This document shows positions 33,743-56,424 of a stretch of 64,000 bases of DNA, in pieces. The stretch is from Amycolatopsis pithecellobii (lineage in GTDB: Bacteria; Actinomycetota; Actinomycetes; Mycobacteriales; Pseudonocardiaceae). Every line of letters starts with the position of its first letter. Position 1 is the stretch's first letter. The translations under genes and the position numbers were made by a program. The notes beneath the pieces were generated by a model, which saw only the letters and a list, made by a program, of their open reading frames with translations, was not told where the DNA came from and ran no database searches. The stretch lies in contig NZ_WMBA01000003.1 in assembly GCF_009707865.1 (NCBI RefSeq), positions 124,001 to 188,000 on the forward strand. Direction: 5' to 3'.

Positions 33743-33792
33743 GCTCGTTATGGCACAAGCACCGGGCGTCCGGGGGCCTTTCGCCGTTGATT
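33743..33792 (+). promoter_or_regulatory. Regulon operator site 1 plus -35 element
   Basis: GCTCGTTATGGCACAAGC (33743-33760) is one of five copies of an 18-bp dyad. Exactly 26 nt later lies TTGATT (33787-33792), a -35-like hexamer, with CACTGT 18 nt further as a possible -10. It precedes the 33861-41805 operon. The upstream in-frame extension of the amidohydrolase would run through this site, so that start is rejected. Confidence 0.7.
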
Positions 33793-33860
33793 TTCGCCAT
33801 GCCGGTCCACCACTGTGGAAACCGGCCGTGAAGCGGAAATCGAGAACGGGGAACCCACCG

Positions 33861-34724
33861 ATGGGCATCGACCTGAATGCGATCGAGGCAATCGACATGC
33901 ATACGCATGTCCTGTCCTCGGTGGCCGGCCATCGTATCGCGCCGGACTCGGTGGAAGCAGCCAGTGGCGAGGTGTTCGGCCACGCGATGGCGATGACCGT
34001 TCCCGAGCTTGCGGAGACCTATCGACAGCGGCGGATGCTGTGCGTGACGTTCATGGTCGACGTGATGGGCACCGAGAATCCGGTGACCAACGACGAGGTG
34101 CTCCGGCTGGGGGCCGAGCACGGCGACGTGATCATCCCGTTCGCGAGTGTCGATCCGCGGCGCCCCGATGCCGTGACGGAGGCTCGCCGGCTGCTCGAGA
34201 CCTACGACGTCAAGGGATTCAAGTTCCATCCGACGATGCAGAACTTCTATCCGAACGACGAGCGTTTCTACCCGCTGTACCAGGTGATCCAGGACAGCGG
34301 CGCGATCACGATCTTCCACACCGGACAGACGGCGATCGGGTCCGGTCAGCCCGGCGGGGGAGGACTGCGGTTGAAATACTCGAACCCGATCCACCACGAC
34401 GACGTCGCCGCGGACTTCCCGGACCTCAAGATCATTCTCGCCCATCCGTCGACGCCGTGGCAGGATGAGGCACTCGCGGTCGCGGTCCACAAGCCCAACG
34501 TCTACATCGACCTGTCGGGCTGGTCGCCCAAGTACTTCCCGCCGCAGCTGGTGCAGTATGCGAACACACTGCTCAAGCACAAGGTGCTCTTCGGCACCGA
34601 CTTCCCGGCGTTCACCCCGGAAAAGTGGCTCGAACTGTTCGACAAACTGCCGATCAAGCCCGAGGTTCGCCCGCTCATTCTCAAGGAGAACGCGGTCGCG
34701 TTGTTCGACGGGAAAGGGCTGTGA
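33861..34724 (+). CDS. Amidohydrolase-2 family metal-dependent hydrolase/decarboxylase
   Basis: 287 residues of TIM-barrel amidohydrolase: H14/H16 in IDMHTHVLSS, KGFKFHPTMQNFYPND, ITIFHTGQTA, LAHPSTPWQDEA and the C-terminal Asp in LFGTDFPAF, together the metal site. Relatives include ACMSD, gamma-resorcylate decarboxylase and 4-oxalomesaconate hydratase-like enzymes, so either decarboxylation of an aromatic acid or hydrolysis is possible. It is the first gene of an operon behind regulon site 1; two other family members lie in the same regulon (43787 and 50470). Confidence 0.8.
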   Translation: MGIDLNAIEAIDMHTHVLSSVAGHRIAPDSVEAASGEVFGHAMAMTVPELAETYRQRRMLCVTFMVDVMGTENPVTNDEVLRLGAEHGDVIIPFASVDPRRPDAVTEARRLLETYDVKGFKFHPTMQNFYPNDERFYPLYQVIQDSGAITIFHTGQTAIGSGQPGGGGLRLKYSNPIHHDDVAADFPDLKIILAHPSTPWQDEALAVAVHKPNVYIDLSGWSPKYFPPQLVQYANTLLKHKVLFGTDFPAFTPEKWLELFDKLPIKPEVRPLILKENAVALFDGKGL

Positions 34725-34725
34725 C

Positions 34726-35475
34726 GTGAAGGTCGAAAACAACGTAGCCGTGGTGACCGGAGGATCGAGCGGACTCGGGCTGGCCACCGCGAAGAGACTT
34801 TCGAACATGGGAGCGAAAGTCTTCGTGCTCGACAGGCAAAAGCCGCCATCGGACGCGCTCGGGACCGCCCACTTCGCCGAGTGTGACGTCACCGACGAGG
34901 ACGGGGTTCGCCGCGCGTTCGAGGAGGCATCGGCCCTGGGCCCGGTCCGCATCGTGGTGAACTGCGCGGGGATCGGCGATCCCCAGCGTGTCCTGTCCCG
35001 GGACGGCAGCACGAAGCCGCTGGCTCCGTTCCGGCATGTGCTGCAGGTCAACCTGGTCGGCACGTTCACGGTGCTGAGCATCGGGGCCGGGTTCATCGCG
35101 CAGACGCAACCGCAGGACGGCGAACGCGGGGTCATCGTGAACACCGCTTCCGTGGCCGCCTTCGACGGACAGATCGGCCAGGCCGCGTACAGCGCTTCCA
35201 AGGGCGGCGTCGCGGCGATGACGCTGCCACTGGCCCGCGACCTCGCGCAGTCGCTCATCCGGGTCGTCGCCGTCGCCCCCGGCATCTTCAGGACACCCCT
35301 GCTGTCCACCCTGCCCGAAGCAGCGCAGGTCGCGCTGGGCGAGCAGATCCCGCATCCGAAGCGACTCGGCGAGCCGGACGAGTTCGCCGCGCTCGTCGAG
35401 CACATCATCGGCAACCCGATGCTGAACGGAGAGGTCATCCGGCTCGACGGCGCCATCCGGATGGGTCCCCGATAG
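34726..35475 (+). CDS. SDR-family 3-hydroxyacyl-CoA dehydrogenase-like (HSD10-type)
   Basis: 249 residues of classical SDR: TGGSSGLG (11-18), NCAG, S142 in NTASVAAF and Y155/K159 in AAYSASKGG. The DRQKPP, ECDVTDEDGV and GIFRTPLL segments resemble type II 3-hydroxyacyl-CoA dehydrogenase (HSD10), which oxidises 3-hydroxyacyl-CoA or hydroxysteroids with NAD. It starts with GTG 34726 one base after the amidohydrolase stop. A beta-oxidation-like step fits the CoA ligase directly downstream. Confidence 0.85.
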   Translation: MKVENNVAVVTGGSSGLGLATAKRLSNMGAKVFVLDRQKPPSDALGTAHFAECDVTDEDGVRRAFEEASALGPVRIVVNCAGIGDPQRVLSRDGSTKPLAPFRHVLQVNLVGTFTVLSIGAGFIAQTQPQDGERGVIVNTASVAAFDGQIGQAAYSASKGGVAAMTLPLARDLAQSLIRVVAVAPGIFRTPLLSTLPEAAQVALGEQIPHPKRLGEPDEFAALVEHIIGNPMLNGEVIRLDGAIRMGPR

Positions 35476-35536
35476 CCGCAACGTCCGCATTCCCCGAGCA
35501 ACCCCCACCCAGCTTAGTCCACATTGGAGTGTCGTC

Positions 35537-37654
35537 ATGCCGTTCACCGGTGAACCCCGGGAGCCCTCGCCCTCGGCGCGCTCCGCGGTCGAGAGGCTGA
35601 TCACCCCGCGGTCGGTTGTCGTCGTCGGCGGGTCCACCCGTCCCGAGGCGCTGGGCAATCGCGTGCTGCGCGGCCTCATCGACGGCGGCTTCGACGGGGA
35701 GATCCACGTGCTGGGCCGCCGGGCGGCCACGATCCACGGGCTCCCGTGCGTCACGAGCTTCGACGACCTCCCGGACGGGATCGACCTTGCGTTGCTGACG
35801 ATGCCGTCCGCTCAGCTCGGCGACGTCGTCGACTCGTGCGTCGCGCACCATGTCGGCGCCGCGGTGTGCTTCGCCTCCGGGTTCGCCGAGCTCGGCGAGG
35901 AAGGGAGCCGCCACCAGGAGGAGCTCGGTCGCCGCGCCCGCACCGGCGGTCTCCGCCTGCTCGGCCCGAACTGTTTCGGGCTGCTGAACACGGTGGGCCG
36001 GTTGTCGGCGCTGCTCGCGCCGATGCCGCCGACGCCCGTCCCCGGCCCCGGGCACGGGCCGGGAGTCGCGATCATCGCGCAGAGCGGCGGCATCGGCACG
36101 CTCGTCGCGGGCGGCCTCGGCGGGCGCGGTGTGCCCGTCTCCCACCTCATCGCGACCGGCAACGAGGCCGACCTGGGACTGGCTGACCTCCTCGAGTACC
36201 TCGCCGACGACGAGCACACCGCCGCCTTCGCGGTGTATGCCGAGCAGATCCGCGAGCCCGGCCGTTTCCTCCGCGCGGTGCGGATCGCCCAGGACCGGCG
36301 GAAGGCCGTCGTGCTGCTGCATCCCGGGCGTAGCGATCGGGCGCGGGTGGCGGTCCAGTCGCATACCGGCGCCCTCGCCGGCGACCACTCGCTGATGGCG
36401 ACGGTCGCCCGCCGCGCAGGGGCCGTCGTCGTCGACACCACCGAGGAACTGGTGGACCTCGCCCAGCTCCTGCTCCGTTTCCCGGCGCCGCCGGCCAAGG
36501 GCGCCGGGGTGATCACGCAATCCGGTGCCATCTGCGCGATCGTGACGGACGCCGCCCAGACCCTCGGGCTCGACCTGCCCGAACTGACCCCGGAGTCCGG
36601 TGACCAGGTCCGGAACCCGCTCGATCTCGGCACCGGGTCGATCTCCGATCCGATGATCATCGGCAAGGCGGCGGAGCGGATCCTCACGGATCCCGCGATC
36701 GGCAGCCTCCTCGTCTCCAACCCGGACGCCCAGGACCCGCTCGACTCCGTCTGGCTGGAGAGCATCGTTCCGCTGCTGGCCGGCTCGGCCAAGCCGATCG
36801 TCTACGTGAGCCAGAACGAGGCCGAGCCCCCTCCCGGTTTCCACCGCCTGCTCCTCGACCACAAGGTCGTGTTCCACCGCTCGCCGGAGCGCGCGCTGCG
36901 GGCGCTGGCGCGGGCGACCGAGGCCGGAGCCCGGCGCGCCATCGGCAGGCGCGAACCCGGCGCGCTCACCCCTGCACCGTCCCTGGCGACAGGCGTCCAG
37001 CCGGAGTGGATCGGGAAGCAACTGTTGCGGCAGATCGGTATCCCCGTTCCCGAGGGCTCACTGGCCCGGACCCCGGATGAGGCCGTCGAGATCGCCGAGC
37101 GCATCGGCTATCCGGTCGTCGCCAAGATCCAGTCGGCGGCGCTGTCCCACAAAACCGACGTCGGCGGGGTCGTCCTCTCGATCGCCGACGCCGATGAGGT
37201 CCGCGCCGCCTGGGCGCGGTTGCACAGCGGCATCGCGCGCGTGCGTCCGGGACTCGCCGTTGACGGCGTCCTCATCGAGCGGATGAGCGCCCCCGGGCTC
37301 GAGCTCGTCATCGGGGCGAAGCGGGACCCCCGGTGGGGCCCGGTTGTCATGGTCGGCGCCGGTGGCGTCCTGGTGGAGGTTCTCGAGGACATCCGGCTGC
37401 TGCCCGCGGACCTGCCCGAGTCCGCTCTCGCCGAGGAGATGCTCCGGCTGAAGGCCGCCCGGATCCTCCGCGGGTACCGCGGTGGCGCGCCCGCCGACAT
37501 CGCCGCGGCCGCACACGTGGCCGCGCTCGTCGGTGATCTCGTGCTCGCGAGGCCCGAGATCACCGAGATCGATATCAACCCGCTGATCGTGTTCCCCGAG
37601 GGCCACGGTGTGATCGCGCTCGACGCGCTGGTGACCACCGCCGACCTGGGATAG
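35537..37654 (+). CDS. NDP-forming acyl-CoA synthetase (ACD type, fused alpha-beta)
   Basis: 705 residues: an N-terminal CoA-binding domain (VVVVGGSTRPEALGN...), succinyl-CoA-ligase-like domains with AIIAQSGGIGTL and the SHTGALAGDHSL block carrying the likely phospho-histidine, and a C-terminal ATP-grasp domain (GYPVVAKIQSAALSHKTDVGG, near 523-543; IDINPLIV). It makes or uses acyl-CoA with ADP/ATP and phosphate, as acetate-CoA ligase (ADP-forming) does. GGAG lies before ATG 35537, 61 bp after the SDR gene. The acyl group is unknown. Confidence 0.85.
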   Translation: MPFTGEPREPSPSARSAVERLITPRSVVVVGGSTRPEALGNRVLRGLIDGGFDGEIHVLGRRAATIHGLPCVTSFDDLPDGIDLALLTMPSAQLGDVVDSCVAHHVGAAVCFASGFAELGEEGSRHQEELGRRARTGGLRLLGPNCFGLLNTVGRLSALLAPMPPTPVPGPGHGPGVAIIAQSGGIGTLVAGGLGGRGVPVSHLIATGNEADLGLADLLEYLADDEHTAAFAVYAEQIREPGRFLRAVRIAQDRRKAVVLLHPGRSDRARVAVQSHTGALAGDHSLMATVARRAGAVVVDTTEELVDLAQLLLRFPAPPAKGAGVITQSGAICAIVTDAAQTLGLDLPELTPESGDQVRNPLDLGTGSISDPMIIGKAAERILTDPAIGSLLVSNPDAQDPLDSVWLESIVPLLAGSAKPIVYVSQNEAEPPPGFHRLLLDHKVVFHRSPERALRALARATEAGARRAIGRREPGALTPAPSLATGVQPEWIGKQLLRQIGIPVPEGSLARTPDEAVEIAERIGYPVVAKIQSAALSHKTDVGGVVLSIADADEVRAAWARLHSGIARVRPGLAVDGVLIERMSAPGLELVIGAKRDPRWGPVVMVGAGGVLVEVLEDIRLLPADLPESALAEEMLRLKAARILRGYRGGAPADIAAAAHVAALVGDLVLARPEITEIDINPLIVFPEGHGVIALDALVTTADLG

Positions 37655-37680
37655 ACGCGACCCGCTTTCCGAGGAGGCCC

Positions 37681-39669
37681 ATGATGGTGGCGAAGCAGCC
37701 GGAGCTCTTGGCCGCGACCGACCAGACGATCGACGACGCACTGGGGTACGCGGATCCCCTGGTGCTGCGCGGACTCGTCTACCAGCTGACCGCGGATCCG
37801 GAGCTGCTGCCGATCGAGGTGGAGACCGAGAACTTCGGCATCTCCGAGAGCGTCACAGTCCGGCACCAGGCCGACGTGGCGATGATCCGGGCGAAGGCCG
37901 CGGCCTACCTGAGGGCGTGCCGGGACGCCGGTGCGGGCGACGTGCCCTTGGGCCCGGCGGAGCGGCTTCCGCGCAGCCTCGCCCTCACCGCGGGCCGGGA
38001 GATCCCGCCGCCGGAGCTGGACATGTGGCTGGAACAGCTTGCCGTGGACCGGTTCGCCCGCGGCGTCTCCTGGCAGGAAAAGCCCTCCGCGGAGCGGCTC
38101 GACGCGTTTTCGGTCGTCGTGATCGGCGCCGGCATGGGCGGCCTGAACGCCGGGGCGCAGCTCGCGCACGCGGGCATCACCTTCACCATCCTGGAGAAGA
38201 ACCCGGAAGTCGGGGGGACCTGGTACGAGAACCGTTATCCGGGCTGCCGGGTCGACACGCCGAGCCGCACCTACACCCACGTCCTCGGCGCCGATTTCGA
38301 CTACCCGTCCCCGTTCTGCGTGCAAAGTGAGAACGAGCGGTATGTGAACTGGATCGCCGACCACTTCGATCTCCGGGAGAAGGTCCAGTTCGGCACGGAC
38401 GTGCAGTCGCTCGTCTGGGACGAGGACACCAAGACCTGGGAGATCACCGCGCTGCAGGGCGGTGTTCAGCGCGTCTGGCGGGCCAACGCGGTGATCACCG
38501 CCGTCGGATTCCTGTCACGGCCCAACATTCCCTCCGTGCCGGGCCTGGACGAGTTCACGGGGGAGCTCTTCCACACCGCGCGCTGGCCGTCCGGCCTCGA
38601 CCTCACCGGGAAGTCGGTCGCCGTGGTCGGCAGCGGCTGCACCGGCTATCAGCTGGTGCCGGAGCTGGCGAAGCAGACCGGGCACGTCTATCACTTCCAG
38701 CGCACCCCGAACTGGGTCTTCGACGTGCCCGGATATCTGGCTCCGTACCCGCCCCAGGTCAACTGGCTGGACCGCAACTTTCCTTACCTGGTCAACTTCA
38801 TCCGTTTCCAGCAGTCCTGGTCGCGGCGCCCGGATGCGACCAGGGCGGCCAACGAGATCGATCCCGCGTTCGAGGACCCGACCGCGCTGAGCGCCGCGAA
38901 CAAGGTCGTCCTCGAGCAGCGCCTCGCGTTCATGAGGTCCAAGTTCGCCGACCGCCCTGACCTGATGGCGAAGATGCTGCCGGTGGCCGCACCGCTGTCC
39001 GCACGGCCGGTCCTCGTCGACCGGGACTACAGCATCTACGACGCGCTGCTCGACGAAGACAAGGTCACGCTGGTGACCGGGGGGATGCAGAAGGTCACCG
39101 CCAAGGGGATCACGGCCGAAGACGGCACCGAATACGAGGTCGACGCGATCGCGCTGGCGACCGGGTACCGGGCGAACGACTACCTGTGGCCGATGCGGGT
39201 GCAAGGACGCGACGGCGCTACGCCGCAAGAGCTTTGGGCCAAGGACGGCGCCCGCGCCTACCTCGGGTGTCTGCTGCCGGGGTTCCCGAACCTGTTCGTG
39301 CTCTACGGCCCCAACACCAACGCGAACGTCGGCTTCGCCGCCATCCACTTGGAGGAGCTGGTGACCCGGTTCGCGGTGAGCTGCATCGCCGGCGTGATCG
39401 CCGAGGAAAAGGACACCGTCGACGTGACCATGGACGCCTACTGGCGGTACAACGACGAGCTGGACCGCAACATGGTCTCGAAGGTCTACCTCGATCCACG
39501 CGCGAACAGCTACTTCACCAATGAGTTCCGCCGCAGCGCCACCAACGGCGCCATCGACCCGCGGATCCTCTGGCGGTGGCTCCGCGACCCGCGGAGCACG
39601 GACCCGAGCCTCACTCGGGACGGCGACGCGATCAGCCCCCGCTTCGGTGAGGACCTCGTCGTTGAGTAG
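37681..39669 (+). CDS. Baeyer-Villiger monooxygenase with N-terminal extension, HAPMO-like
   Basis: 662 residues. An extension of about 140 residues precedes the FAD Rossmann motif VVIGAGMGGLNAG near 146-158; the GGTWYENRYPGCRVDTPS block follows. The BVMO fingerprint FTGELFHTARW (F292 to W302; FxGxxxHxxxW) and second Rossmann motif VVGSGCTGYQ are intact. The overall size and N-terminal domain match 4-hydroxyacetophenone monooxygenase (about 640 residues) rather than cyclohexanone-type enzymes (about 540). It would convert an aryl or cyclic ketone to an ester, to be cut by the adjacent esterase. ATG 37684 has better spacing from GAGGAGG than 37681. Confidence 0.87.
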   Translation: MMVAKQPELLAATDQTIDDALGYADPLVLRGLVYQLTADPELLPIEVETENFGISESVTVRHQADVAMIRAKAAAYLRACRDAGAGDVPLGPAERLPRSLALTAGREIPPPELDMWLEQLAVDRFARGVSWQEKPSAERLDAFSVVVIGAGMGGLNAGAQLAHAGITFTILEKNPEVGGTWYENRYPGCRVDTPSRTYTHVLGADFDYPSPFCVQSENERYVNWIADHFDLREKVQFGTDVQSLVWDEDTKTWEITALQGGVQRVWRANAVITAVGFLSRPNIPSVPGLDEFTGELFHTARWPSGLDLTGKSVAVVGSGCTGYQLVPELAKQTGHVYHFQRTPNWVFDVPGYLAPYPPQVNWLDRNFPYLVNFIRFQQSWSRRPDATRAANEIDPAFEDPTALSAANKVVLEQRLAFMRSKFADRPDLMAKMLPVAAPLSARPVLVDRDYSIYDALLDEDKVTLVTGGMQKVTAKGITAEDGTEYEVDAIALATGYRANDYLWPMRVQGRDGATPQELWAKDGARAYLGCLLPGFPNLFVLYGPNTNANVGFAAIHLEELVTRFAVSCIAGVIAEEKDTVDVTMDAYWRYNDELDRNMVSKVYLDPRANSYFTNEFRRSATNGAIDPRILWRWLRDPRSTDPSLTRDGDAISPRFGEDLVVE

Positions 39670-40618
39670 GGCGGGTGCTCCGCCGGTGGATCCCGGGGTG
39701 CGGCGGGACCTGAACTCGATACCGGCCGTGCGGGAGCTGACCGCCGAGTCGCTTCCGGCGATTCGGGCGGCGCGTCCACCGCGCCCCCAGCTCTCGGGCG
39801 AAGTCGAGCACTCGGACCTGACCATTCCCGGCGATCCCGCGCTCCGGCTCAGGATTCATCGACGCCGGGCCGCCACGGGTGTCCTGCCGTGCATCCTGTC
39901 CATCCATGGTGGCGGCTTCGTGCTGGGAGACGCCACCGTGGACGACGCGCTGTTCGAGAACTGGTGCCGGCGGTTCGACTGCATCGGGGTTTCGGTCGAC
40001 TACCGGCTCGCCCCGGAGACGCCGTATCCGGGTCCGCTGGACGACTGCCACCGCGGGCTGCGATGGGTGCGTGACCACTCCACGGAGCTCGGCATCGACC
40101 CGGCCCGGGTCGGCGTGTTCGGCGTCAGTGCGGGCGGCGGGTTGGCGGCGGGTCTCAGCCTGCTCATCCGGGACCTCGGTGAACCCCCGCCGGCCTTTCA
40201 GGCACTGCTGTACCCGATGCTCGACGACCGGCAGGTCACGACGTCGAGCAGGTGGACCGACGTCCCCCGCTGGAACCCGGTCGCGAACCGGTTCGGCTGG
40301 CGGTCGTATCTGGGCCCGGTATACGGCGCGGCGGACGTCCCGTACCACGCGGCGCCCGCACGGGCCACCGACCTGACCGGCCTGCCGCCGACCTGCGTCG
40401 TCGTCGGGACCGTGGACGGTTTCCACGACGAGGACGTCGCCTTTGCCCAGCGGCTGTGCCACGCGGGCGTATCGACCGAACTGCACGTTTATGCGGGTGG
40501 TTCCCACGGCTTCGCCGCACCGGCGTGCCGGGCGCCGCTCGCCATCCGCGCCCGGCAGGTGATCGACGACTGGCTGGCCGGTCAACTGGGGCTCAACCGA
40601 GAAGAGGAATTGTCGTGA
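39662..40618 (+). CDS. HSL-family alpha/beta hydrolase (esterase)
   Basis: About 318 residues of hormone-sensitive-lipase type: oxyanion motif IHGGGFVLGD near residue 81, nucleophile in GVSAGGGLAAG near 156, Asp in GTVDGFHDED and His in GGSHGFA near the end. TTG 39662, eight bases after GGTGAGGAC and overlapping the BVMO stop, is the likely start; GTG 39689 is an alternative. Tight coupling to the BVMO suggests it hydrolyses the ester that enzyme makes, like the acetate-ester hydrolase paired with 4-hydroxyacetophenone monooxygenase. Confidence 0.83.
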   Translation: MSRAGAPPVDPGVRRDLNSIPAVRELTAESLPAIRAARPPRPQLSGEVEHSDLTIPGDPALRLRIHRRRAATGVLPCILSIHGGGFVLGDATVDDALFENWCRRFDCIGVSVDYRLAPETPYPGPLDDCHRGLRWVRDHSTELGIDPARVGVFGVSAGGGLAAGLSLLIRDLGEPPPAFQALLYPMLDDRQVTTSSRWTDVPRWNPVANRFGWRSYLGPVYGAADVPYHAAPARATDLTGLPPTCVVVGTVDGFHDEDVAFAQRLCHAGVSTELHVYAGGSHGFAAPACRAPLAIRARQVIDDWLAGQLGLNREEELS

Positions 40619-41805
40619 GCACACCAGATCCGCGTTCCGGCCGCATTCCCCTGCTGATCGTCGGGGGAGGCATCGGCGGGCTCGCCGCGGCGCTGGCCAT
40701 CGCCCGTACCGGACGGTCGGTGCACCTGATCGAGCAGGCGGCCGAGTTCGCCGAAATCGGCGCGGGGCTGCAGATCGGGGCGAACGCCACCCGCGTGCTC
40801 GACCGGCTCGGGGTGCTGGAGGCGGCGGAGTCGGTCGCCGTCCATCCCGAGCAGGCGGTGATGCGGGACGCGACCACGGGGGAGAAGCTCACCGGGCTCA
40901 CCCTGGGTGCCACCTACCGCCGGCGCTACGGATTTCCCTACCTCGTCATGCACCGCGGCGATCTCCTGCAGATCCTGCTCGACGCCTGCAACGCGGACCC
41001 GCTGATCACCTTGGAGAACAACCGGCACGTCACCGGCTGCCGGCTCGAGACCGGCGGTGTGGCCGTGACCTGTGCGGACGGCCAGGTCTACCGGGCGGGG
41101 TTGGTGGTGGGGGCCGACGGGCTGCGGTCCACGCTGCGGACGCTGTTCGCGGACGACGAACCGGTGTGCAGCGGATATGTGGCGTACCGCGGCACCGTGC
41201 CGATCGAGGAGGTGGAGACCGGCGTCGAGGGCAACGACGTCATGCTCTGGATCGGCCCGCGGCTGCACCTCATGCAGTACCCGGTGCGGGTCGGGGCGCT
41301 CTACAACCAGGTCGCCGTGTTCCACAGCAAGACCTTCGCCGCCGGTGGTGAGTGGGGGACGCCCGAGGAGCTCGACGAGATGTTCGCCCCGACGGTCGAA
41401 GCCGTCCGCCTCAGCGCCGCTTCGGTCTCCCGTATCCGGCACTGGCCGCTGTACGACCGCGAACCGCTCGGCTCCTTCGTCCGCGGCCGGGCGGTGCTGC
41501 TCGGGGACGCCGCTCACCCGATGCTGCAGGTTCTCGGGCAGGGCGCGTGCCAGGCCCTCGAGGACGCCGTCGTCCTGGCCGACGAGCTCGCGGCCAATCC
41601 GGAAAATGTGGAGAAGGCGCTGGCCGCATATGAGCAGGCGCGGCTACCTCGCACCACCCGGTGCCAGCGTGTCGCCCGCCCGTGGGCGGACATCTGGCAC
41701 CTCACCGATCCGCTGGCACTCGCGCTGCGCAACCGGATCTTCCGCACCCGGGCCGACGACGACTTCAGTGACGTCGACTGGCTGTATGCCGAACTCCCGG
41801 CTTGA
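40615..41805 (+). CDS. FAD-dependent aromatic hydroxylase (salicylate/3-hydroxybenzoate hydroxylase-like)
   Basis: 396 residues: GGGIGGLAAAL (17-27), the EIGAGLQIGANATRVLDRLG block typical of salicylate 1-hydroxylase and 3-hydroxybenzoate 6-hydroxylase, the DG motif VVGADGLRSTLR near 165 and the GD motif LLGDAAHPMLQVLGQGACQ near 296. It would hydroxylate, possibly with decarboxylation, a phenolic acid or phenol. The intradiol dioxygenase that follows suggests the product is hydroxyquinol or a catechol. GTG 40615 overlaps the esterase stop as GTGA. Confidence 0.86.
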   Translation: MSTPDPRSGRIPLLIVGGGIGGLAAALAIARTGRSVHLIEQAAEFAEIGAGLQIGANATRVLDRLGVLEAAESVAVHPEQAVMRDATTGEKLTGLTLGATYRRRYGFPYLVMHRGDLLQILLDACNADPLITLENNRHVTGCRLETGGVAVTCADGQVYRAGLVVGADGLRSTLRTLFADDEPVCSGYVAYRGTVPIEEVETGVEGNDVMLWIGPRLHLMQYPVRVGALYNQVAVFHSKTFAAGGEWGTPEELDEMFAPTVEAVRLSAASVSRIRHWPLYDREPLGSFVRGRAVLLGDAAHPMLQVLGQGACQALEDAVVLADELAANPENVEKALAAYEQARLPRTTRCQRVARPWADIWHLTDPLALALRNRIFRTRADDDFSDVDWLYAELPA

Positions 41806-41807: not shown

Positions 41808-41825
41808 GCTCGTTCTAGCACAAGC
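41808..41825 (+). promoter_or_regulatory. Regulon operator site 2
   Basis: GCTCGTTCTAGCACAAGC, the best dyad of the five (7 of 9 symmetric pairs, CTAG centre), starts 3 bp after the hydroxylase stop and 87 bp before the intradiol dioxygenase GTG. The nearest -35-like hexamer in line is TTGATG at 41866, 40 nt on, rather than 26 as at the other sites. Confidence 0.65.
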
Positions 41826-47624: not shown

Positions 47625-48061
47625 CCACCCTCTGTCCAGTCAAGAGATCAGGTGCCTCGATGATCAACCCTCCCGACCGTCACGATCCTGAGCTGGAGCC
47701 GTTCTGGGACGGCACGGACCAGGACGAGCTGCGCGTCCAGCACTGCGCGGCGTGCGGCACCTTCCGGTGGCCGCCTCGCCCGGCCTGTGCCCACTGCGGC
47801 TCGCTGGACACCGAGTGGGTTCAGGCGCCCGGCCGCGGCGAACTTTTCAGCTGGACCGTCGTGGCGCGCTCGACGCTGCCGGACTTCGTGGATCAGGTCC
47901 CTTATGCGGTCGGAGTCGTCGCGTTGGACGGCCTGCCCGTGCGCATGATCGGCAAGATCGAAACGGACGACCCCTGGGGACTGCGGGTGGGAATGCCGGT
48001 CACCGCGGTGTTCCGGAACCACGCCTCCGGCGTCCGGCTCGCGGTGTGGGAGCTCAGGTGA
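47621..48061 (+). CDS. DUF35 zinc-ribbon/OB-fold acyl-CoA-binding protein
   Basis: 146 residues (132 if ATG 47660 is used). A rubredoxin-like zinc ribbon HCAACGTFRWPP...CAHCG holds four Cys, followed by an OB-fold (GELFSWTVVARSTLP, VPYAVGVVALDG, GMPVTAVFR). DUF35 partners form obligate complexes with thiolase-fold aldolases or hydratases and hold the CoA substrate. Translational coupling (GTGA) to the thiolase-like gene supports a complex. The next start (GTG 48058) overlaps its stop in the same way. Confidence 0.85.
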   Translation: MTTLCPVKRSGASMINPPDRHDPELEPFWDGTDQDELRVQHCAACGTFRWPPRPACAHCGSLDTEWVQAPGRGELFSWTVVARSTLPDFVDQVPYAVGVVALDGLPVRMIGKIETDDPWGLRVGMPVTAVFRNHASGVRLAVWELR

Positions 48062-48991: not shown

Positions 48992-49096
48992 GTGGTCCTG
49001 ACCTCGATGCCGGGCATCGGGGTCAGGACCCCAGCTCGCATCCTGCTCGAGATCGGCGACGCTGCGCACTTCGCCGACGACGAGACACCCGGCTAA
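48992..49096 (+). mobile_element. IS110-family transposase remnant
   Basis: Thirty-four codons read VVLTSMPGIGVRTPARILLE and continue IGDAAHF, the strongly conserved C-terminal (transposase_20) block of IS110 transposases, then diverge and stop at TAA 49096. No other part of the element is present. The scrap fills the gap between the convergent cyclase and MFS genes. Confidence 0.75.
48994..49030. terminator. Long hairpin inside the IS110 scrap, probable bidirectional terminator
   Basis: GGTCCTGACC (48994-49003) pairs with GGTCAGGACC (49021-49030); inside, CGATGC (49005-49010) pairs with GCATCG (49014-49019). With one mismatch this makes a 16-bp stem with a 3-nt loop, placed exactly between convergent stops at 48987 and 49093. 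Confidence 0.6.
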
Positions 49097-50439
49097 ACCC
49101 CGGCTCTACCGGTGACGCGCGGGCCGAATGCGATGACGACGAGCGCGAGGGCCGGCGCCAGGGCGAAAGCGAGGAAGATCGCGGGCGTGCCGAGTCCGGC
49201 CGCGAGCAGCAGGCCGCCATAGATGGGGCCGGCGATTCCGCCCAGGCGGCCGACGGTGAGGGCGAGACCGAGTCCGCTGCCCCGGTTGTGCGTGGGGTAA
49301 TACACCGCCATGTAGGAGTTCAGCAGGCTCTGCGTCCCCACGCCGCCGGCGCCCATCACCAGGACGAGCGGATACACCAGGATCGCCGGTGGCTCAAGCG
49401 CCAGCACGACAAGGGAGGCCGCCGCGGCGAGGAAGCTGGTGAGCACGACCGGCTTGGGGCCGATCCGGTCCGCGATCGTGGCGCCGGACAAGGAACCGGC
49501 CATGGTGCCGATATTGAGGATGACCACGAAAATGAGTGCGGACGTGATCCCGTACCCGGATTTGATCATCAGCTGCGGCAGCCAGACGTTCGCCCCGAAT
49601 CCCATCAGCAGGCACAACGCGGTCGCGAGCCAGAACACGATGGTCGCCCGCACATGCTTGCGGCTGAACAGCGACCGCACCGCTCCGGTCGCGGATCGGT
49701 CCGCCGCCGACGTCAGCGCCGGGCCCGTCTCCAGCAGGACAGGCAACCGGTGACGGCGAATGCAGTTCTGGGCTTCCGCCGCCCGTCCCCTGGCGAGCAG
49801 ATACGAGATCGACTCCGGCAGGCGTGCGTAGGCCAACGGGAACAGCAGCACCACGGGCAGCGCACCGACCCAGAAGGCCGCGCGGAAACCGTAAGCGGGC
49901 ACCAGCCAAATACCGAGCAGTGCGGCGATGACTCCGCCGATACCGAGGCCGACCTGGGCCAGGCTCGAGTTGAAGTTCCGGCGCCGAAGTGGCGAGAACT
50001 CGACAATCAAGGAGAGCGCGGTCGGGGTGAAGCCTCCGCTACCGAGTCCGACGAGGACACGGGCGACGAGGAGCATTTCGGGGTTCACCGAGACCGCACT
50101 GAGCACCATGCCGCCGGAAAAGCACAATACGGTGGCGAGGTACATGCGCCGGCGGCCGATGAGGTCGGTGAGTGTGCCGGCGGTGAACGCCCCCAGCCCC
50201 ATGCCGAAAACCGCCGCCGACCCGATGAGGCCGACATATTCCGGAGTGAGGGACCAGCCCGATTTCAGCAGCGAAGGCACGGTCACGCCGAGGACGAGAA
50301 TGTCGTAGCCCTCGAAAATCAGGGTGACCGCGGCGAGGATCAGCAACGCGACAGGGGTCCGCAGAACGGTGACGGTCGTGGCGGTTCTTGTGGTCGCGGA
50401 AGGTTTCGGTTGTGATGCGGGGGTGGGTATGGCGTTCAC
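49093..50439 (-). CDS. MFS transporter, aromatic acid:H+ symporter type
   Basis: 448 residues with 12 predicted helices and MFS motif A (GTLTDLIGRRRMYLA near 88-102). The first helix FEGYDILVLG has the D-x-x-[IL] Asp of AAHS (BenK/PcaK) transporters, and the loop VEFSPLRRRN and the central charged loop at about 230-262 are normal. It likely imports the aromatic acid degraded by this regulon. It is the last gene of the unit running from 56344, 30 bp after the amidohydrolase. Confidence 0.85.
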   Translation of the reverse strand: MNAIPTPASQPKPSATTRTATTVTVLRTPVALLILAAVTLIFEGYDILVLGVTVPSLLKSGWSLTPEYVGLIGSAAVFGMGLGAFTAGTLTDLIGRRRMYLATVLCFSGGMVLSAVSVNPEMLLVARVLVGLGSGGFTPTALSLIVEFSPLRRRNFNSSLAQVGLGIGGVIAALLGIWLVPAYGFRAAFWVGALPVVLLFPLAYARLPESISYLLARGRAAEAQNCIRRHRLPVLLETGPALTSAADRSATGAVRSLFSRKHVRATIVFWLATALCLLMGFGANVWLPQLMIKSGYGITSALIFVVILNIGTMAGSLSGATIADRIGPKPVVLTSFLAAAASLVVLALEPPAILVYPLVLVMGAGGVGTQSLLNSYMAVYYPTHNRGSGLGLALTVGRLGGIAGPIYGGLLLAAGLGTPAIFLAFALAPALALVVIAFGPRVTGRAGV

Positions 50440-50469
50440 GAGACCTCCTTGTACAGGTGAACGACAGGT

Positions 50470-51399
50470 TCAGAGCAGTGCCTTCGCGTTCCGGCGAAAG
50501 AGATCCAGCCATCCCTCGCCGGAGTCCAGTTCGCGCATCACCTTCCTCACGCTGGGCTGCCGGGCGAAGCAGTAGTCGGTGCCGAGCAGGAGCCGGCCGG
50601 TTCCGACGACCGAGGTCAGTGTGGGTAGCGCGGTCGGCAGGGGCAGCACCGCGCAGTCGAACCAGAGCCGGCCGAGCTGGATGCGGGCGGACTCCTCGGC
50701 CTTCCCGTCGCCATAGCCTTGCGCGGAGCCGCGGAAGCGTTCCACCCGTTCGGTCACGAGCGGGAGGACGCCGCCGCTGTGGGTGGCGATGAACCGGATA
50801 TCGGGATAACGCAGAATCACTCCGGCGAAAATCAGATCGACAAAAGTGCGGGCGCTGTCGAACAAGTACTCGATCATCGGCTCCGGGCGGCCGAGCGAGA
50901 CCAGGTCGCTGTTCGGCGGCGAGGTGGGGTGCACGAAAAATGTCGCACGGCGGCGGTTGAGCGCCTGCCAGAGCGGCTCGTACCGGGGATCGCCGAGGTA
51001 AACGCCGCCCGCGTTCGACATCACCGAGTATCCGGTGACGCCATCGCGGTCGTGGACACGTTCGATCTCGGCAAGCGCACCGTCGACGTCGGGCAGTGGC
51101 AGGGAGGCGAAGAGCCCGAACCGGCCGGGGTGCCGGCGGGCCGTGCTGATACCGACATCGTTGACGAGGCGAGCGATATCCCGGGCCGGCTCGTCGTGGC
51201 CGAAGTGGATACCGGGCGACGACACGGACAGGATCGACCGGTCGATCCCGACCTCGTCCATCAACGCGAGGTGCTCCTCCGCGGACCAGGCCGGCCACGC
51301 GGGCATGTTGTCGGGCACCCGATGACCACCCTGCTTGGCAGCGGCGATGTACTCGTCAGTGACGAAGTGGGCGTGCACGTCGACGAGCGCGTCGGACAT
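50470..51399 (-). CDS. Amidohydrolase-2 family protein (third in regulon)
   Basis: 309 residues: H9/H11 in VDVHAHFVTD, FVHPTSPPNSD, ATHSGGVLPLV and LLGTDYCFARQ provide the TIM-barrel metal site. Relatives include ACMSD and aromatic-acid decarboxylases; reaction unknown. It starts 5 bp after the stop of the acyl-CoA ligase, in the same transcription unit. It is only distantly similar to the other two family members in this regulon, so they probably do different steps. Confidence 0.8.
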   Translation of the reverse strand: MSDALVDVHAHFVTDEYIAAAKQGGHRVPDNMPAWPAWSAEEHLALMDEVGIDRSILSVSSPGIHFGHDEPARDIARLVNDVGISTARRHPGRFGLFASLPLPDVDGALAEIERVHDRDGVTGYSVMSNAGGVYLGDPRYEPLWQALNRRRATFFVHPTSPPNSDLVSLGRPEPMIEYLFDSARTFVDLIFAGVILRYPDIRFIATHSGGVLPLVTERVERFRGSAQGYGDGKAEESARIQLGRLWFDCAVLPLPTALPTLTSVVGTGRLLLGTDYCFARQPSVRKVMRELDSGEGWLDLFRRNAKALL

Positions 51400-51404
51400 C
51401 GTGG

Positions 51405-52997
51405 CTACGCCTCGCTGTGGGCGTGCCCCGACGAGGCCAGTCGCTCTCGCAGGCTGGGCTTGGAGATCTTGGTACTCCCTGTCAGCGGCCACCTCTCGAC
51501 CGGGATGAACTCCTTGGGACGCTTGAAGGCCGCGAGTCCGGAGCGGCAGAACTCCTTCAATTCCTCTTGGGTGAGGGTCATTCCGGGCGCGAACTCGATG
51601 AAGGCGACGACCTTCTCACCCCATTTCGCGTCGGCCACCCCGATGATCTGAGCCTCGACGATGCTCGGGTGCTCTTTGAGGAAGATCTCCACTTCGAGCG
51701 CCGACACGTTCTCGCCGCCGGACTTCACGACATCCTTGATGCGGCCGTGGAACCGGAGGTAGCCGTCTGGGGAGAGGCTCCCCAGGTCGCCGGTGCGAAG
51801 CCAGCCGTCGTCGGTGAACGGTTGCTCGTCGTCGGGCATGCCGAGATAGCCGATCATGCGATTCCAGCTCAGTATCTGGATCTCGCCCATCGCGCCGGCC
51901 GGGAGGACGTGCCCGTGGTCGTCCACGATGCGCACTTCGATACCGGCGTGCGGGCGGCCGATGTACTGGAACCGCGTCTCCTGAGGATCCCGCAGGTCCC
52001 CCAGTGCGACCGTGGGGGAGCATTCCGTCAAGCCGTATACGTTGGTGATCTCCGCCCCGAGCACGTCGTGCAGTTGCCGGCAGAAGCCCGGTGTCTCCGC
52101 GGTGGCCACCAGCCGTATCCGCGATTCGCCCCCGGTTCGTTCCCAGCTGCGCACGAAGTCCCAGAGGACCGTCCCCACCCCGATGAGCACCGTCAGCCCC
52201 GTGCTCTGCGCGATCCGGGCCGCCCGGTCACCCGACCAGCGGGACATGATCGCGACCGAGGCGCCGCCGAGGAAGGCGGACAACAGCGTGAAGACCGCCC
52301 CCGAGTTGTGGTAAAAGGGCGACGCCCCAAGGAAAACGTCGTCGATCCCGACCATCCAGCGGCCCGCGTTGGCGGCGCCGGTGGCGATCAGCGCGTCCTG
52401 CCGGAGCCGGGCGCCCTTGGGAGATGCGGTACTCCCCGAGGTGAACTGGATCATGCCGACGTCGGTGGAAAAGTCCCTGCCCGCCGCGCTCGGACCGGCT
52501 TCGTCAGCCGCTTCCAGCACCGGGAACGGCGCCCCTGGTGTGTCACGGAGCCAGCGGCAGGTGATGCCGGTGGTCAGCGGACCGGCGAGGCGTTCGGTGG
52601 CGAATCTGGTGACCGCATCCGAGTCCGGGTGCGGTTCGTCGACCAGCAGAAGACGCGGTTGCGTCTTCTCCAGCTGGAACGCGATCTCCCGCCAGGTGAG
52701 CTTGGTATTGAGCGGTACCACCGACGCTCCGAGCACACTCGCGCCGAACCAGGCATAGACCCAGGCGATGGAGTTCTCGGCGAGGATCGCCACCCGGTCC
52801 CCGGCGGATACGCCCGCGGCGGACAGCCGTCCTGCCATGAGCCGGGACTGGGTGTTCAGATCCTCGAATGTGACGACGCCGGCTTCTTGTTCCCACCCTC
52901 CCTCTTCGGGATGGAGCGCGGGACGTTTGCCGTAGCGCCTGGCCAGTGTGTCGAGCATGCAGGAGAAGTCATGACCGAGCCAGTCCTGGTCCCTCAT
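51405..52997 (-). CDS. AMP-dependent acyl-CoA ligase
   Basis: 530 residues with ANL motifs: IQFTSGSTASPKGARL near 180-195, VYGLTECSP near 320, DGWLRTGDLGSL near 405 and the catalytic Lys in LTGSTKISKPSLRERL at the end. It activates a carboxylate as CoA thioester. It lies between an LLM oxidoreductase and an amidohydrolase in the unit headed by a CoA transferase. ATG 52997 is used; a longer in-frame start would overlap the LLM stop region. Confidence 0.86.
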   Translation of the reverse strand: MRDQDWLGHDFSCMLDTLARRYGKRPALHPEEGGWEQEAGVVTFEDLNTQSRLMAGRLSAAGVSAGDRVAILAENSIAWVYAWFGASVLGASVVPLNTKLTWREIAFQLEKTQPRLLLVDEPHPDSDAVTRFATERLAGPLTTGITCRWLRDTPGAPFPVLEAADEAGPSAAGRDFSTDVGMIQFTSGSTASPKGARLRQDALIATGAANAGRWMVGIDDVFLGASPFYHNSGAVFTLLSAFLGGASVAIMSRWSGDRAARIAQSTGLTVLIGVGTVLWDFVRSWERTGGESRIRLVATAETPGFCRQLHDVLGAEITNVYGLTECSPTVALGDLRDPQETRFQYIGRPHAGIEVRIVDDHGHVLPAGAMGEIQILSWNRMIGYLGMPDDEQPFTDDGWLRTGDLGSLSPDGYLRFHGRIKDVVKSGGENVSALEVEIFLKEHPSIVEAQIIGVADAKWGEKVVAFIEFAPGMTLTQEELKEFCRSGLAAFKRPKEFIPVERWPLTGSTKISKPSLRERLASSGHAHSEA

Positions 52998-53028
52998 CGT
53001 CCCTGCCTTTCCCGCGAGGTTGCGTACG

Positions 53029-54006
53029 TCAATTCGCCCGGACACCGGACTTCACCACCGCTTCCGTGAGCAGTTCCAGCTGTCGCATGAGGATTCTTTC
53101 GCTGGGATTGGGCAGGTCGATGGTGACGTGCTGGACGCCGAGGTCCGCGTATTCGTTCAGCAGTTCCGCCGCGTTCTCCACCGACAGGAATTTCCGGAGA
53201 CTCTTCCCCGTATAAGGCGCCTTCGGATCGGAGATCCCCCAGATCAGCGATACCGCGATCCCCGGGCACGGAACGCCCTGCTCAGCCGCCTGCTCCTCCA
53301 GGTAGCGCCGGCCGGTCCGCACCTGCTCGGGCTCCAGCCTCGCCGGCAGCCAGACGTCGCCGAGCTCCACGGCACGCCGCACCGCCCGCCGGCTGTTGCC
53401 CCCGACCAGCACGGGGGGACTCGGCTGCTGCGGGCTTTTGATGAGCGGTCTGATGGTGGGCAGCTGGGTGAACCGGCCGGCGAAATCGAACTCCTCACCC
53501 CGGAGCATCTGGCGGATCACCCGGATGTACTCGTCGGTGCGGAGTCCCCGCTGGGCGGGAGAAACACCGATGGCGTTGAACTCCGCCTCGACGTGACCGA
53601 CCCCGATACCGAAGAGCATCCGGCCTTTCGAAAGGACGTCGAGGGTGCCCAGCATCTTGGCCTGGACAACGGGATCCCGGTAGGGCAGCACGATGACGGA
53701 GCTCCCGAGCTCGATCTTCGTCGTGCTACCGGCGAGAAAGCCCCAGAGCATATACGGGTCCAGCCACCAATTCTCCTCCCCGTAATATTCGACGGCCGTG
53801 AATTCCTTGTTGCCGTATTCCTCGATGTCCAGCCATTGCCGTACCGGCTCGACGCGGGTGTCCTCGAGTCCGCCCACCGGCGCGACGAGGTGGTCTTGCA
53901 CCCACAGCGAGTCGAACGCCAGGTTCTCCGCGGTCGTCGCGAGGCGCAGGACCTCATCTCCGCGGACCCAGGACCGATAGCACGGTATCCAGGTACCGAC
54001 CTTCAC
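53029..54006 (-). CDS. LLM-class F420-dependent oxidoreductase
   Basis: 325 residues of luciferase-like TIM barrel: VKVGTWIPCYRSW start, LAFDSLWVQDHLVAPVGG, IELGSSVIVLPYRDPVVQAK, GIGVGHVEAEFNAIG and PPVLVGGNSRRAVRRAVEL. These fit F420-dependent actinobacterial LLM proteins. The possible reaction is reduction or oxidation of a CoA ester or ketone in the pathway. GTG 54006 has AGGAGG a few bases upstream. It is 34 bp after the CoA transferase gene. Confidence 0.84.
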   Translation of the reverse strand: MKVGTWIPCYRSWVRGDEVLRLATTAENLAFDSLWVQDHLVAPVGGLEDTRVEPVRQWLDIEEYGNKEFTAVEYYGEENWWLDPYMLWGFLAGSTTKIELGSSVIVLPYRDPVVQAKMLGTLDVLSKGRMLFGIGVGHVEAEFNAIGVSPAQRGLRTDEYIRVIRQMLRGEEFDFAGRFTQLPTIRPLIKSPQQPSPPVLVGGNSRRAVRRAVELGDVWLPARLEPEQVRTGRRYLEEQAAEQGVPCPGIAVSLIWGISDPKAPYTGKSLRKFLSVENAAELLNEYADLGVQHVTIDLPNPSERILMRQLELLTEAVVKSGVRAN

Positions 54007-54040
54007 AGCGCCTCCTGATTTCTCCAGAAAAAATTGCGGC

Positions 54041-56344
54041 TCACGGCCATCCCGGCGGCAAGTCATTGGTCTGGACCGCCCAGTGCTTCTCCAGCGTGGC
54101 CACTTCGTCACCGAGCCCGGCCCGCTCGAGGATACGCACGCCGTCGGCGCCGGGCGGCCGGACGGCGTGCCCGACGCGGGCCGGGGTATCCGACAGCGCG
54201 AGTGCGACGCCCGGCATCGTGATCTCCCCGGCCTCCTCATAGATCTGCCGCACGGACATGCCGCGGGCCAGGTTCACCGGGTGCGTCATCAGCTCGGCGA
54301 GGGTCACCAGCTCGTGGGCGCCGAGGCCGGCGGCACGCAGCGCGGTTACCCACTCGGCAGCGGGCCGGGCCGCGAACGCCTCCTCCAACCGGCCGGCCAG
54401 CTCGTCCGGGCCGGTGATCCCCGCGATGCCGGCCAGTCCGTCGATCCCGTCGAGGCGGGCCCGGTCGGCCTCGGTGGCACCGAGGAAGAACCAGCTGTCC
54501 GCCGCCTGGTAGAAGCGCATCAGCGGGCCCTCGCCGAGCACGGCGATACCGGCCGGCTCGGCGGCGGGTCCCGACCCGGCGTGCTCCAGCATCAGTGTCG
54601 CCTGGTGCAGGGTGCCGGTCTGGACCAATGATGTCCGCACCCGCAGGCCCTCGCCGGTGGCGGCGTGGTGATAGATGCCCAGCAGCGCGGCGAAGGCCGT
54701 GGCGACCCCGGTGCCGTAGTCGAGCACGGTGTAGGGGCCGAAGATGGCGGGCGGGTTGCCGGGGCCGCCGGTCCGCGCCATGACCCCGGTGACGGCCTGG
54801 CCCTGGGCCTCGTATCCGCGCCCGCGCGCCCACGGCCCGATGCCGCCGAAGCAGCTCACCGTGGCGTAGACGATGCCGGGTTTGCGCGCACGGACAGCCT
54901 CGTAGCCGATGCCGTAGCGCTCGGCGGTGCCGGGCGGGAAGTTGAGCACCACGACGTCCGCCTGGTCGACCAGCCGCCAGAAGACCTGCTGGCCCTCGAC
55001 GTGCTCGATGTCGAGGAGGATCGACTGTTTGCCGCGGTTGATGCTGCTGTGTACCGGGATAGTGCGCTGCGGTGCGTTGATCTTGATGACCTCCGCGCCC
55101 AGCTCCCCGAGGATCCGTCCGGAGCTCGGACCGGCCAGGATCTGGGTGAGGTCGAGCACGCGCAGGCCCGCGAGCGCGCTTTCCCGCGCGACGGCGGCCG
55201 GCGCGGGGGTCTCGGCGGGCTCGGTAGTCGCGAGCTCGGCGAGAATGTCCGCCCGGTCGGCGTCGGGCAGGTGACGGGGCCGCAGCGCGTGGTCCAGACC
55301 ATCTGGGCCCTGGTCGTCACCCACGTGCACCGGGATGCCCGCCATCCACGTCGGGCCGAACACCGGGTCGTCGAGCCGGGTGACCGCGCCGGACGCCCCG
55401 GCGTGCGGTGTCGCGAGCCACTCGCGGGCGGTCCGGACCTTGGCGATCGGGACGCCCGCCCGGCGTCCCAGGTCCTCCCAATACGCCGCCGGGTGCTCGA
55501 GGAACATCTCGGTGAGCCGGGCGCACAGGGTCTCGTCGTCGAGGACTGTCCACTCCGGACGGCCGGCCTCCTGTAGCAACCAGTTGCGGAAGCGCGGGCT
55601 TGAGCCGATCGGGTTGAACTGCACGTACCGGTCGTCCCCGCAGCGGTAGGTGCCGGCGCCGAGGACCTTGTTCAACACGAACTCCGGTTTCGGCCCGCCG
55701 GCGGAGATGGCGTAGGTGCCCTGGTCCCCGATGGCCTCGAACATGGCGTCATACAAGGGAACGGACACATGCTGGCCGCGGCCGGAGCGAAGGCGCTCGG
55801 TCAGCGCGGCGACGATGCCGACGGCACCGAGCAGCGCCGCGAAGTTCGACGCGATCGGCAACGCGCTGTAGGTGGGCCGCGTCATGTCCCAGCCCTCGGG
55901 GGCTTCGCTCATCCGCGTCCGGCAGTTGTGTGTGGCGGCGGCGATGACGCCTTCGAAGGCCCGGACCCCGGCGCGTGGGTCGTCCGGGGCGAAACCGGGC
56001 AGCGACAGGTAGACCAGGCGCGGACTGCTCTCCCGCAGATCCGCCCAGCCCAGCCCGAAGCGCGCCATGACCCCTGGCCGGAAGTTCTCGATCACCACGT
56101 CCGCCCGCTCGACGAGCGCGAGGGCGGTTTTCCGGTCCGCCACCGTGGTCAGGTCGAGGGTGATGCGGCGCTTGCCGCGGCTGAGGAAGGCATCCGCCGT
56201 GGCGGTTGCCACGGCACTGTCGGGGCGGTCGACTCGCACCACCTCCGCCCCCTGCTCGGCGAGCAGGACGCCCACGAGCGGCCCGGCGATGTAGTGGCCG
56301 AAGTCGACGACACGAATCCCTGCGAGCGGGCCGGCGTTGGTCAT
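54041..56344 (-). CDS. Double-length CaiB/BaiF (class III) CoA transferase
   Basis: 767 residues holding two complete CoA_transf_3 domains in tandem: residues about 3-385 (GIRVVDFGHYIAGPLVGVLL start) and about 400-760 (GLRVLDLTQILAGPSSGRIL start). Single-domain enzymes are about 400 residues. At the position of the catalytic Asp both copies have Glu (VRAFEGVIAA in the first, GRGYEAQGQA in the second). It would move CoA between acids. It is the first gene of the unit behind operator site 5. Confidence 0.86.
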   Translation of the reverse strand: MTNAGPLAGIRVVDFGHYIAGPLVGVLLAEQGAEVVRVDRPDSAVATATADAFLSRGKRRITLDLTTVADRKTALALVERADVVIENFRPGVMARFGLGWADLRESSPRLVYLSLPGFAPDDPRAGVRAFEGVIAAATHNCRTRMSEAPEGWDMTRPTYSALPIASNFAALLGAVGIVAALTERLRSGRGQHVSVPLYDAMFEAIGDQGTYAISAGGPKPEFVLNKVLGAGTYRCGDDRYVQFNPIGSSPRFRNWLLQEAGRPEWTVLDDETLCARLTEMFLEHPAAYWEDLGRRAGVPIAKVRTAREWLATPHAGASGAVTRLDDPVFGPTWMAGIPVHVGDDQGPDGLDHALRPRHLPDADRADILAELATTEPAETPAPAAVARESALAGLRVLDLTQILAGPSSGRILGELGAEVIKINAPQRTIPVHSSINRGKQSILLDIEHVEGQQVFWRLVDQADVVVLNFPPGTAERYGIGYEAVRARKPGIVYATVSCFGGIGPWARGRGYEAQGQAVTGVMARTGGPGNPPAIFGPYTVLDYGTGVATAFAALLGIYHHAATGEGLRVRTSLVQTGTLHQATLMLEHAGSGPAAEPAGIAVLGEGPLMRFYQAADSWFFLGATEADRARLDGIDGLAGIAGITGPDELAGRLEEAFAARPAAEWVTALRAAGLGAHELVTLAELMTHPVNLARGMSVRQIYEEAGEITMPGVALALSDTPARVGHAVRPPGADGVRILERAGLGDEVATLEKHWAVQTNDLPPGWP

Positions 56345-56374
56345 AAGGGAACAGTCATTGTCAGCACTACGAAA

Positions 56375-56424
56375 AGTCAACGGGACGGCGCCGCTGCGAC
56401 CGCGGCAGTTGTTCTAGAACGAGC
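56375..56424 (-). promoter_or_regulatory. Regulon operator site 5 plus -35 element
   Basis: On the minus strand GCTCGTTCTAGAACAACT (56424-56407), then 26 nt, then TTGACT (56380-56375) with GACTGT 18 nt on. It points to the CoA-transferase unit and lies in the 147-bp region shared with the divergent MFS gene at 56492. Confidence 0.7.

Follow-up and report, generated by a model that had tools for sequence, protein, structure and literature searches.

Five near-identical palindromic sites are candidate operators of a MocR-type regulator in a putative catabolic gene cluster of Amycolatopsis pithecellobii

We analysed a 64,000-nt window of the Amycolatopsis pithecellobii genome (contig NZ_WMBA01000003.1, positions 124,001 to 188,000), in which five near-identical 18-bp sites accompany a gene encoding a MocR-type regulator. 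The evidence suggests that these sites are very probably operators of the MocR protein, which would activate five catabolic promoters from about position -71; we estimate the probability of this reading at about 77%. It draws on the sites, their spacing, their conservation, the presence of their core before distant homologs and the gene content, from which we infer binding, activation, ligand and substrate. A previous reading of this DNA (the original prediction) had proposed a MocR regulon with sites in a class I activator position. Sequence comparisons support the proposal: an ortholog is accompanied by two sites with the same 26-nt spacing, the operator core recurs before MocR homologs and in the operator of EnuR, and MocR is the only one of six window regulators compared that is matched in the corresponding region of the second genome.

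The five 18-mers lie exactly at the coordinates and on the strands originally predicted. The putative operators and the regulator gene are:
33743..33760, plus strand: operator 1, GCTCGTTATGGCACAAGC; -35 TTGATT at 33787-33792, -10-like CACTGT at 33811-33816; upstream of the operon of Amido1, an Amidohydro_2 gene
41808..41825, plus strand: operator 2, GCTCGTTCTAGCACAAGC; weak -35 TCGGCT at 25 nt; between the 3-hydroxybenzoate 6-hydroxylase-like (3HB6H-like) and dioxygenase genes
44882..44899, minus strand: operator 3, GTTCGTTATGGCACAAGC; -35 TTGCTT at 44855-44850, -10-like CACTGT; upstream of the operon of Amido2, a hydroxybenzoate-decarboxylase-type gene
44905..46302, minus strand: MocR-type regulator, with a GntR winged helix-turn-helix (wHTH) and an aminotransferase I/II domain by Pfam; putative binder of all five sites
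46377..46394, plus strand: operator 4, GCTCGTTCTAGCACAACC; -35 TTGACT at 46421-46426, -10-like CACGGT; between mocR and the thiolase operon
56407..56424, minus strand: operator 5, GCTCGTTCTAGAACAACT; -35 TTGACT at 56380-56375, -10-like GACTGT at 56356-56351, ATG at 56344

The symmetric consensus of the sites is the near-palindrome GCTTGTTCTAGAACAAGC, with the core T(T/C)GT-N6-ACAA; compared with TTGT-N6-ACAA, each of the five carries one mismatch, a T to C change in one half. The window contains five matches at three or fewer mismatches, against 0.06 expected from shuffles, and none of 100 shuffles reached five. Then, we carried out the whole-genome search named as a check in the original prediction, which would have been contradicted by frequent matches at random places. 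The degenerate pattern GYTCGTTMTRGMACAASY matched five times in the 7.9-Mb genome, always at the window sites, and its reversed control never did. A stricter pattern with up to three mismatches gave 22 matches in the same genome; the 17 beyond the window are background, because the reversed control gave 130. The shuffle counts and the genome-wide uniqueness thus rule out a chance repeat or a dispersed element. Among the 16 best matrix matches, none was upstream of the P450, PucR, IclR or pyrimidine genes. Across 200 related genomes, 97 (A. pithecellobii included) had matches at two or fewer mismatches, usually fewer than the reversed control; perfect matches occurred in A. pithecellobii only, and four other genomes had one match each with one mismatch. 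We read the matches in relatives as background.

The spacing between the sites and their promoters is as regular as had been claimed. Exactly 26 nt separate four of the five sites from a -35 hexamer (TTGATT, TTGCTT, TTGACT and TTGACT), and the -10-like boxes CACTGT, CACTGT, CACGGT and GACTGT follow at 17-18 nt, from which the predicted site centre near -71 follows. The likeness to a -35 hexamer peaks at offset 26, a peak reached in 7 of 5,000 mononucleotide shuffles for the five window sites and in none of 5,000 when two sites from Actinoplanes (see below) were added. Indeed, the fixed helical phase upstream of the -35 that characterises a class I layout was found as 26 nt in six of these seven sites, the seventh standing at 25 nt from a weak -35. 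With a span of roughly -62 to -79, the window sites do not overlap the core promoter. Moreover, the -10-like boxes lack the first T, and such weak boxes would thus fit promoters that need help. The ATG of the fifth unit, as read from the sequence, stands 6 nt past its -10, so that a leaderless mRNA is predicted there. The promoter of mocR itself could not be placed.

The MocR protein has the composition of its subfamily. A GntR wHTH occupies residues 33-94 (PF00392, 29.4 bits, cut-off 27), and a fold-type I aminotransferase-like domain, in the subfamily of about 350 aa, was recognised by PF00155 Aminotran_1_2 (43.2 bits, cut-off 19.7). The lysine in RGWNKSHGPDLR aligns with that of TFSKILAPGFR in the aminotransferase homologue 1x0m, which we take to be the lysine binding pyridoxal 5'-phosphate (PLP). 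The best NCBIfam model was PtsJ (E 3e-55, below its cut-off). The claim that MocR is the sole regulator of the set holds for 33743-56424, where no other was found; a short distance beyond it, at 57902-58597, is a GntR-FCD regulator.

Every site heads a separate transcription unit and is oriented toward it, in agreement with the original prediction. The units and the divergent neighbour of the last one are:
33861..41805, plus strand: unit 1, Amidohydro_2 (Amido1), SDR, NDP-forming CoA ligase-like, Baeyer-Villiger monooxygenase-like, HSL-type hydrolase and 3-hydroxybenzoate 6-hydroxylase-like genes; gaps -71 to 61 nt
41912..42793, plus strand: unit 2, intradiol ring-cleavage dioxygenase (Pfam Dioxygenase_C; catechol 1,2-dioxygenases in PDB)
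42981..44776, minus strand: unit 3, Amido2 (hydroxybenzoate-decarboxylase type) and PcaD-like alpha/beta hydrolase
46476..48987, plus strand: unit 4, thiolase-like, DUF35/OB-fold and cyclase genes
49093..56344, minus strand: unit 5, fused CaiB CoA-transferase, LLM monooxygenase, AMP-ligase (acyl-CoA ligase), Amido3 and AAHS-type MFS transporter; gaps -22 to 31 nt
56462..57865 (start approximate), plus strand: second MFS transporter, divergent from unit 5 and sharing with it the intergenic region that holds operator 5; membership uncertain

The units comprise 17 genes; adding mocR brings the total to 18, and the divergent MFS gene makes it 19. The PDB matches of the unit 3 Amido2 include 5-carboxyvanillate and gamma-resorcylate decarboxylases. 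As a whole, the gene set suggests the catabolism of an aromatic or cyclic compound.

We then looked for the regulator and its sites in other genomes. A single MocR ortholog was found, with 81% identity, in Actinoplanes sp. NBRC 103695, in one contig scan with a reach limited to close relatives. In the 200 relatives, 194 genomes had some MocR-type match, the best at 40-43% identity apart from the gene of A. pithecellobii itself. At E 1e-90 or better, only this gene or that of Actinoplanes was recovered from 396 genomes of the phylum, 350 of the Actinoplanes family and 390 of the Amycolatopsis family, sets that partly overlap. The 99 records obtained from a plasmid search were all under 60%.

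In Actinoplanes the cluster is conserved in content and differs in gene order. Orthologs of all unit 1 genes (Amido1 86%, SDR 80%, CoA ligase 79%, Baeyer-Villiger 86%, hydrolase 74%, 3HB6H 84%) and unit 4 genes (thiolase 88%, DUF35 77%, cyclase 84%) are present, together with those of the LLM (83%), AMP-ligase (80%), Amido2 (75%), dioxygenase (69%) and PcaD-like (41%) genes from the other units. For CaiB, both MFS transporters and the P450, the 54-kb Actinoplanes region gave no match. When the six regulators of the window (MocR, GntR-FCD, PucR, IclR, LacI and XRE) were compared with this region, MocR alone was matched; conversely, the window contained no match to three Actinoplanes regulators (two LysR and one TetR). 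The Actinoplanes mocR is flanked by two sites, which precede the orthologs of units 4 and 1:
L083 9845, minus strand: site orthologous to operator 4, before the thiolase operon
L083 11419, plus strand: site orthologous to operator 1, before the Amido1 operon

Both lie 26 nt from a -35, TTGACT for the thiolase operon and TGGACT for the Amido1 operon. With the degenerate pattern used above, derived from the window sites alone, the thiolase-operon site was the only perfect match in the 10.8 Mb of Actinoplanes; the Amido1-operon site had one mismatch and was tied with one unrelated match elsewhere. What distinguishes the two sites is their adjacency to mocR and the -35 at 26 nt. Furthermore, the LLM and AMP-ligase genes, under site 5 in the window, lie in Actinoplanes downstream of the cyclase on the same strand. 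If these runs are co-transcribed, a site would thus precede the same 11 genes (unit 1, unit 4, LLM and AMP-ligase) in both genomes.

The hexamer GCAACC stands at -9 to -4 before sites 1, 4 and 5 and before the Actinoplanes site at L083 11419, and is absent before sites 2 and 3; it may represent a third half-site of the sort known from three-box MocR motifs. In both genomes a sequence close to the palindrome (ACCTGTTCTGGAACAAGC; ACCTGTTCTGGGACAAGC) was also seen within the cyclase gene (window 48389-48406; Actinoplanes G200 C12:52136), which coding conservation may explain.

Then, we evaluated whether the core TTGT-N6-ACAA occurs before more distant MocR genes. Within 160 nt upstream of the matched frames of 29 homologs with 34-43% identity, taken as the best loci among the 200 relatives and including several close kin, the core was perfect in 13/29 and had one mismatch in 5/29. 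The background for these loci was 0.05% (perfect) plus 2.1% (one mismatch) in shuffles, and 0% plus 1.2% in other windows of the same loci. The core-positive homologs fall in several deep branches of the tree, with 8 changes along it. In the 450 nt examined for 20 other MocR-type genes (28-30% identity; hand-picked from the lower list of the same scan, with regions richer in G+C, mean 0.716), no core at one or fewer mismatches was found (0/20); shuffles of these regions yielded it in 46/2000 cases.

Considering 33 homolog loci, the core at one or fewer mismatches was present in 20, and in 11 of these a TTG lies exactly 6 nt past it, a count reached in 0/2001 shuffles; no other offset exceeded one locus. 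In 10 of the 11, some of them close kin, TAnnnT follows 17-18 nt beyond. Like the window MocR, the homologs L055-L059, L063, L067, L069, L072 and L096 (Nonomuraea gerenzanensis) have the core, with zero or one mismatch, upstream of mocR and facing a TTGNNN -35. The distance from the -35 differs: 26 nt in the window, 6 nt in these homologs, which places the homolog core centre near -51 of the divergent target versus near -71 in the window. This 20-nt shift corresponds to about two helical turns, as would be expected if the protein faces the same side of RNA polymerase. Together with the sites being clear of the core promoter, it leads us to favour activation, by inference from the layout.

By Pfam, the frames divergent from the homologs encode CN_hydrolase (L059, L067) and aminotransferase III (L069). 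A reading by eye of the genes divergent from L055 and L057 as 4,5-dihydroxyphthalate-decarboxylase-like was dropped, as they had no Pfam match. On the side of the divergent MFS gene in the window (56425-56462), a TTGCTC stands 5 nt beyond operator 5 and resembles the homolog layout; this gene may have its own MocR-facing promoter.

Among known systems, the closest operator is that of EnuR, published as ATTGTnnnnnnACAAT with the core ATTGT-N6-ACAAT (PMC8739950). EnuR/EutR, the MocR-type regulators of ectoine catabolism, share with the window system the architecture, the TTGT/ACAA half-sites, the 6-nt spacing and the control of a catabolic cluster (PMC8739950, PMC5320631). The five window sites match TTGT-N6-ACAA, the operator core of the EnuR group, with the single mismatch described above. 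In contrast to EnuR, the window sites precede the -35 by 26 nt, occur at five promoters and stand before genes unrelated to ectoine. Coherently, no ectoine catabolic gene was among the families assigned to the units, and MocR scored 108.5 bits against the NF052286 EhuR model, whose cut-off is 480.

More generally, PMC5320631 describes MocR operators as built of repeats, direct and/or inverted, in which TGT boxes are frequent; the window sites show such repeats and boxes and are shared with the one ortholog available. The same source presents several characterised MocR proteins as activators and auto-repressors, with genes often divergent from positively regulated targets. Regulators of the GabR, TauR and PdxR type often have such a divergent target and, like the window protein, join a wHTH to an aminotransferase-like domain (PMC5320631); unlike their direct repeats of other sequence, as given in PMC4494728, the window has a palindrome at five promoters. 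A MocR regulon as a kind, and a palindromic TTGT/ACAA operator, are therefore known; what is new is the present member, with its layout over five promoters and its set of genes.

An explanation in which MocR binds the same sites as a repressor or anti-activator relieved by substrate, in the manner described for EnuR, is the main rival, because the literature presents EnuR as a repressor; sites predicted for it cover the -35/-10 core promoter (PMC8739950). Autorepression would also be compatible with site 4, which precedes the mocR start by about 75 nt. The window sites instead occupy roughly -62 to -79 and keep a constant distance to a -35 followed by a weak -10, and the homolog operators stand upstream of, not over, a TTG-type -35 in 11/20 loci. 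We thus consider repression unlikely.

This comparison with EnuR is also one of several points that weigh against activation by MocR at all five sites. Site 2 (41808) is without a clear -35, having only a weak TCGGCT at 25 nt; 11/29 homologs have no core at one or fewer mismatches; and the window MocR reaches no NCBIfam cut-off. The footprinting is based on two genomes; for sites 2, 3 and 5 no counterpart was identified in Actinoplanes, which leaves them known from the window alone, and the Actinoplanes operon of Amido2, PcaD-like and intradiol dioxygenase genes has no site. With the stricter pattern, moreover, both Actinoplanes sites have two mismatches each, which alone is no better than background.

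The GntR-FCD regulator could be proposed as the binding protein, since it has a GntR wHTH and its gene adjoins unit 5 and the divergent MFS gene; FadR-type sites likewise use TKGT/ACMA boxes, according to PMC4494728. The gap between GT and AC is 2-3 nt in FadR-type sites and mostly 4 in HutC-type ones (same source), versus 6 in the window sites, as in EnuR. Nothing matching this regulator was found in the 54-kb region in which Actinoplanes retains the sites, and the core recurs upstream of MocR homologs. On the half-site spacing and the absence from Actinoplanes, we rejected it as highly improbable. Least credible of all is an unlinked regulator with MocR as a bystander: a position at -71 suits many activator families and binding by MocR is a prediction, but mocR has travelled with the sites (in Actinoplanes it lies between both), the core precedes its homologs, and the genome holds no further copy of the site.

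Activation by MocR would then proceed as follows. A MocR dimer would bind the near-palindrome centred near -71 at five promoters with weak -10 boxes, PLP and a pathway compound being held in the aminotransferase-like domain; the protein would contact RNA polymerase and turn on 17-19 genes, whose substrate would be an aromatic or cyclic carboxylate or ketone. As to the origin of this layout, the spacers of sites 3 and 1 are equal at 17/26 bases, and site 3 with its promoter may be a copy of site 1 and promoter 1. On this basis we tentatively propose that operators were copied to newly recruited operons. In this possible, still rather doubtful, scenario, a MocR whose relatives serve a divergent neighbour, with the operator 6 nt before the -35, was turned into a class I activator that governs a whole mobile cluster for aromatic degradation, the operator moved two helical turns upstream, and the signal is a PLP-bound aromatic or amino intermediate.

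Some further observations concern the surroundings of these genes. In Actinoplanes, unit 1 also includes a gene resembling gentisate 1,2-dioxygenase, according to its best NCBIfam model, the cut-off of which was not reached; its 70% homolog in A. pithecellobii is on the same contig, 76 kb from site 1, outside the motif-defined regulon. As a further test we looked for the cluster in the absence of mocR; the best other Baeyer-Villiger homolog (49%) has a 3.7-kb locus without a site (best match at 5 mismatches) and is too distant to inform. The Actinoplanes copy of Amido3 was matched over residues 3-106 of 317 (L083 about 4218-4526; C12:48634-48942) and looks truncated. ARAGORN called a 97-nt tRNA-Val (gac) at 43486-43582, inside the PcaD-like frame and on the same strand, which is probably a false positive. 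To the left of the regulon (17950-20204 and 30826-33676) lie an amidohydrolase read as dihydropyrimidinase-like, a CN_hydrolase, an MMSDH-type dehydrogenase and an aminotransferase III; the CN_hydrolase and aminotransferase III are without an operator here, though these families are divergent neighbours of the MocR homologs L059, L067 and L069.

No MocR regulon for aromatic catabolism was found in the open-access literature searched, a scope outside which most subscription journals fall, and the word "aromatic" has 0 occurrences in the main text of PMC5320631. If true, ring cleavage would come under the control of a MocR regulon, a case not described in the literature examined. The analysis provides the MocR protein with a candidate operator, a set of five target promoters and a role that can be tested, and would connect its subfamily with a Baeyer-Villiger and ring-cleavage cluster instead of amino acids, PLP or ectoine. 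The rearrangement of the cluster between two genomes reveals which promoters kept the site. Furthermore, the cores before distant homologs are candidate operators for other unassigned MocR regulators, and the 6-nt versus 26-nt gap would offer a natural test of helical-phase rules in MocR activation.

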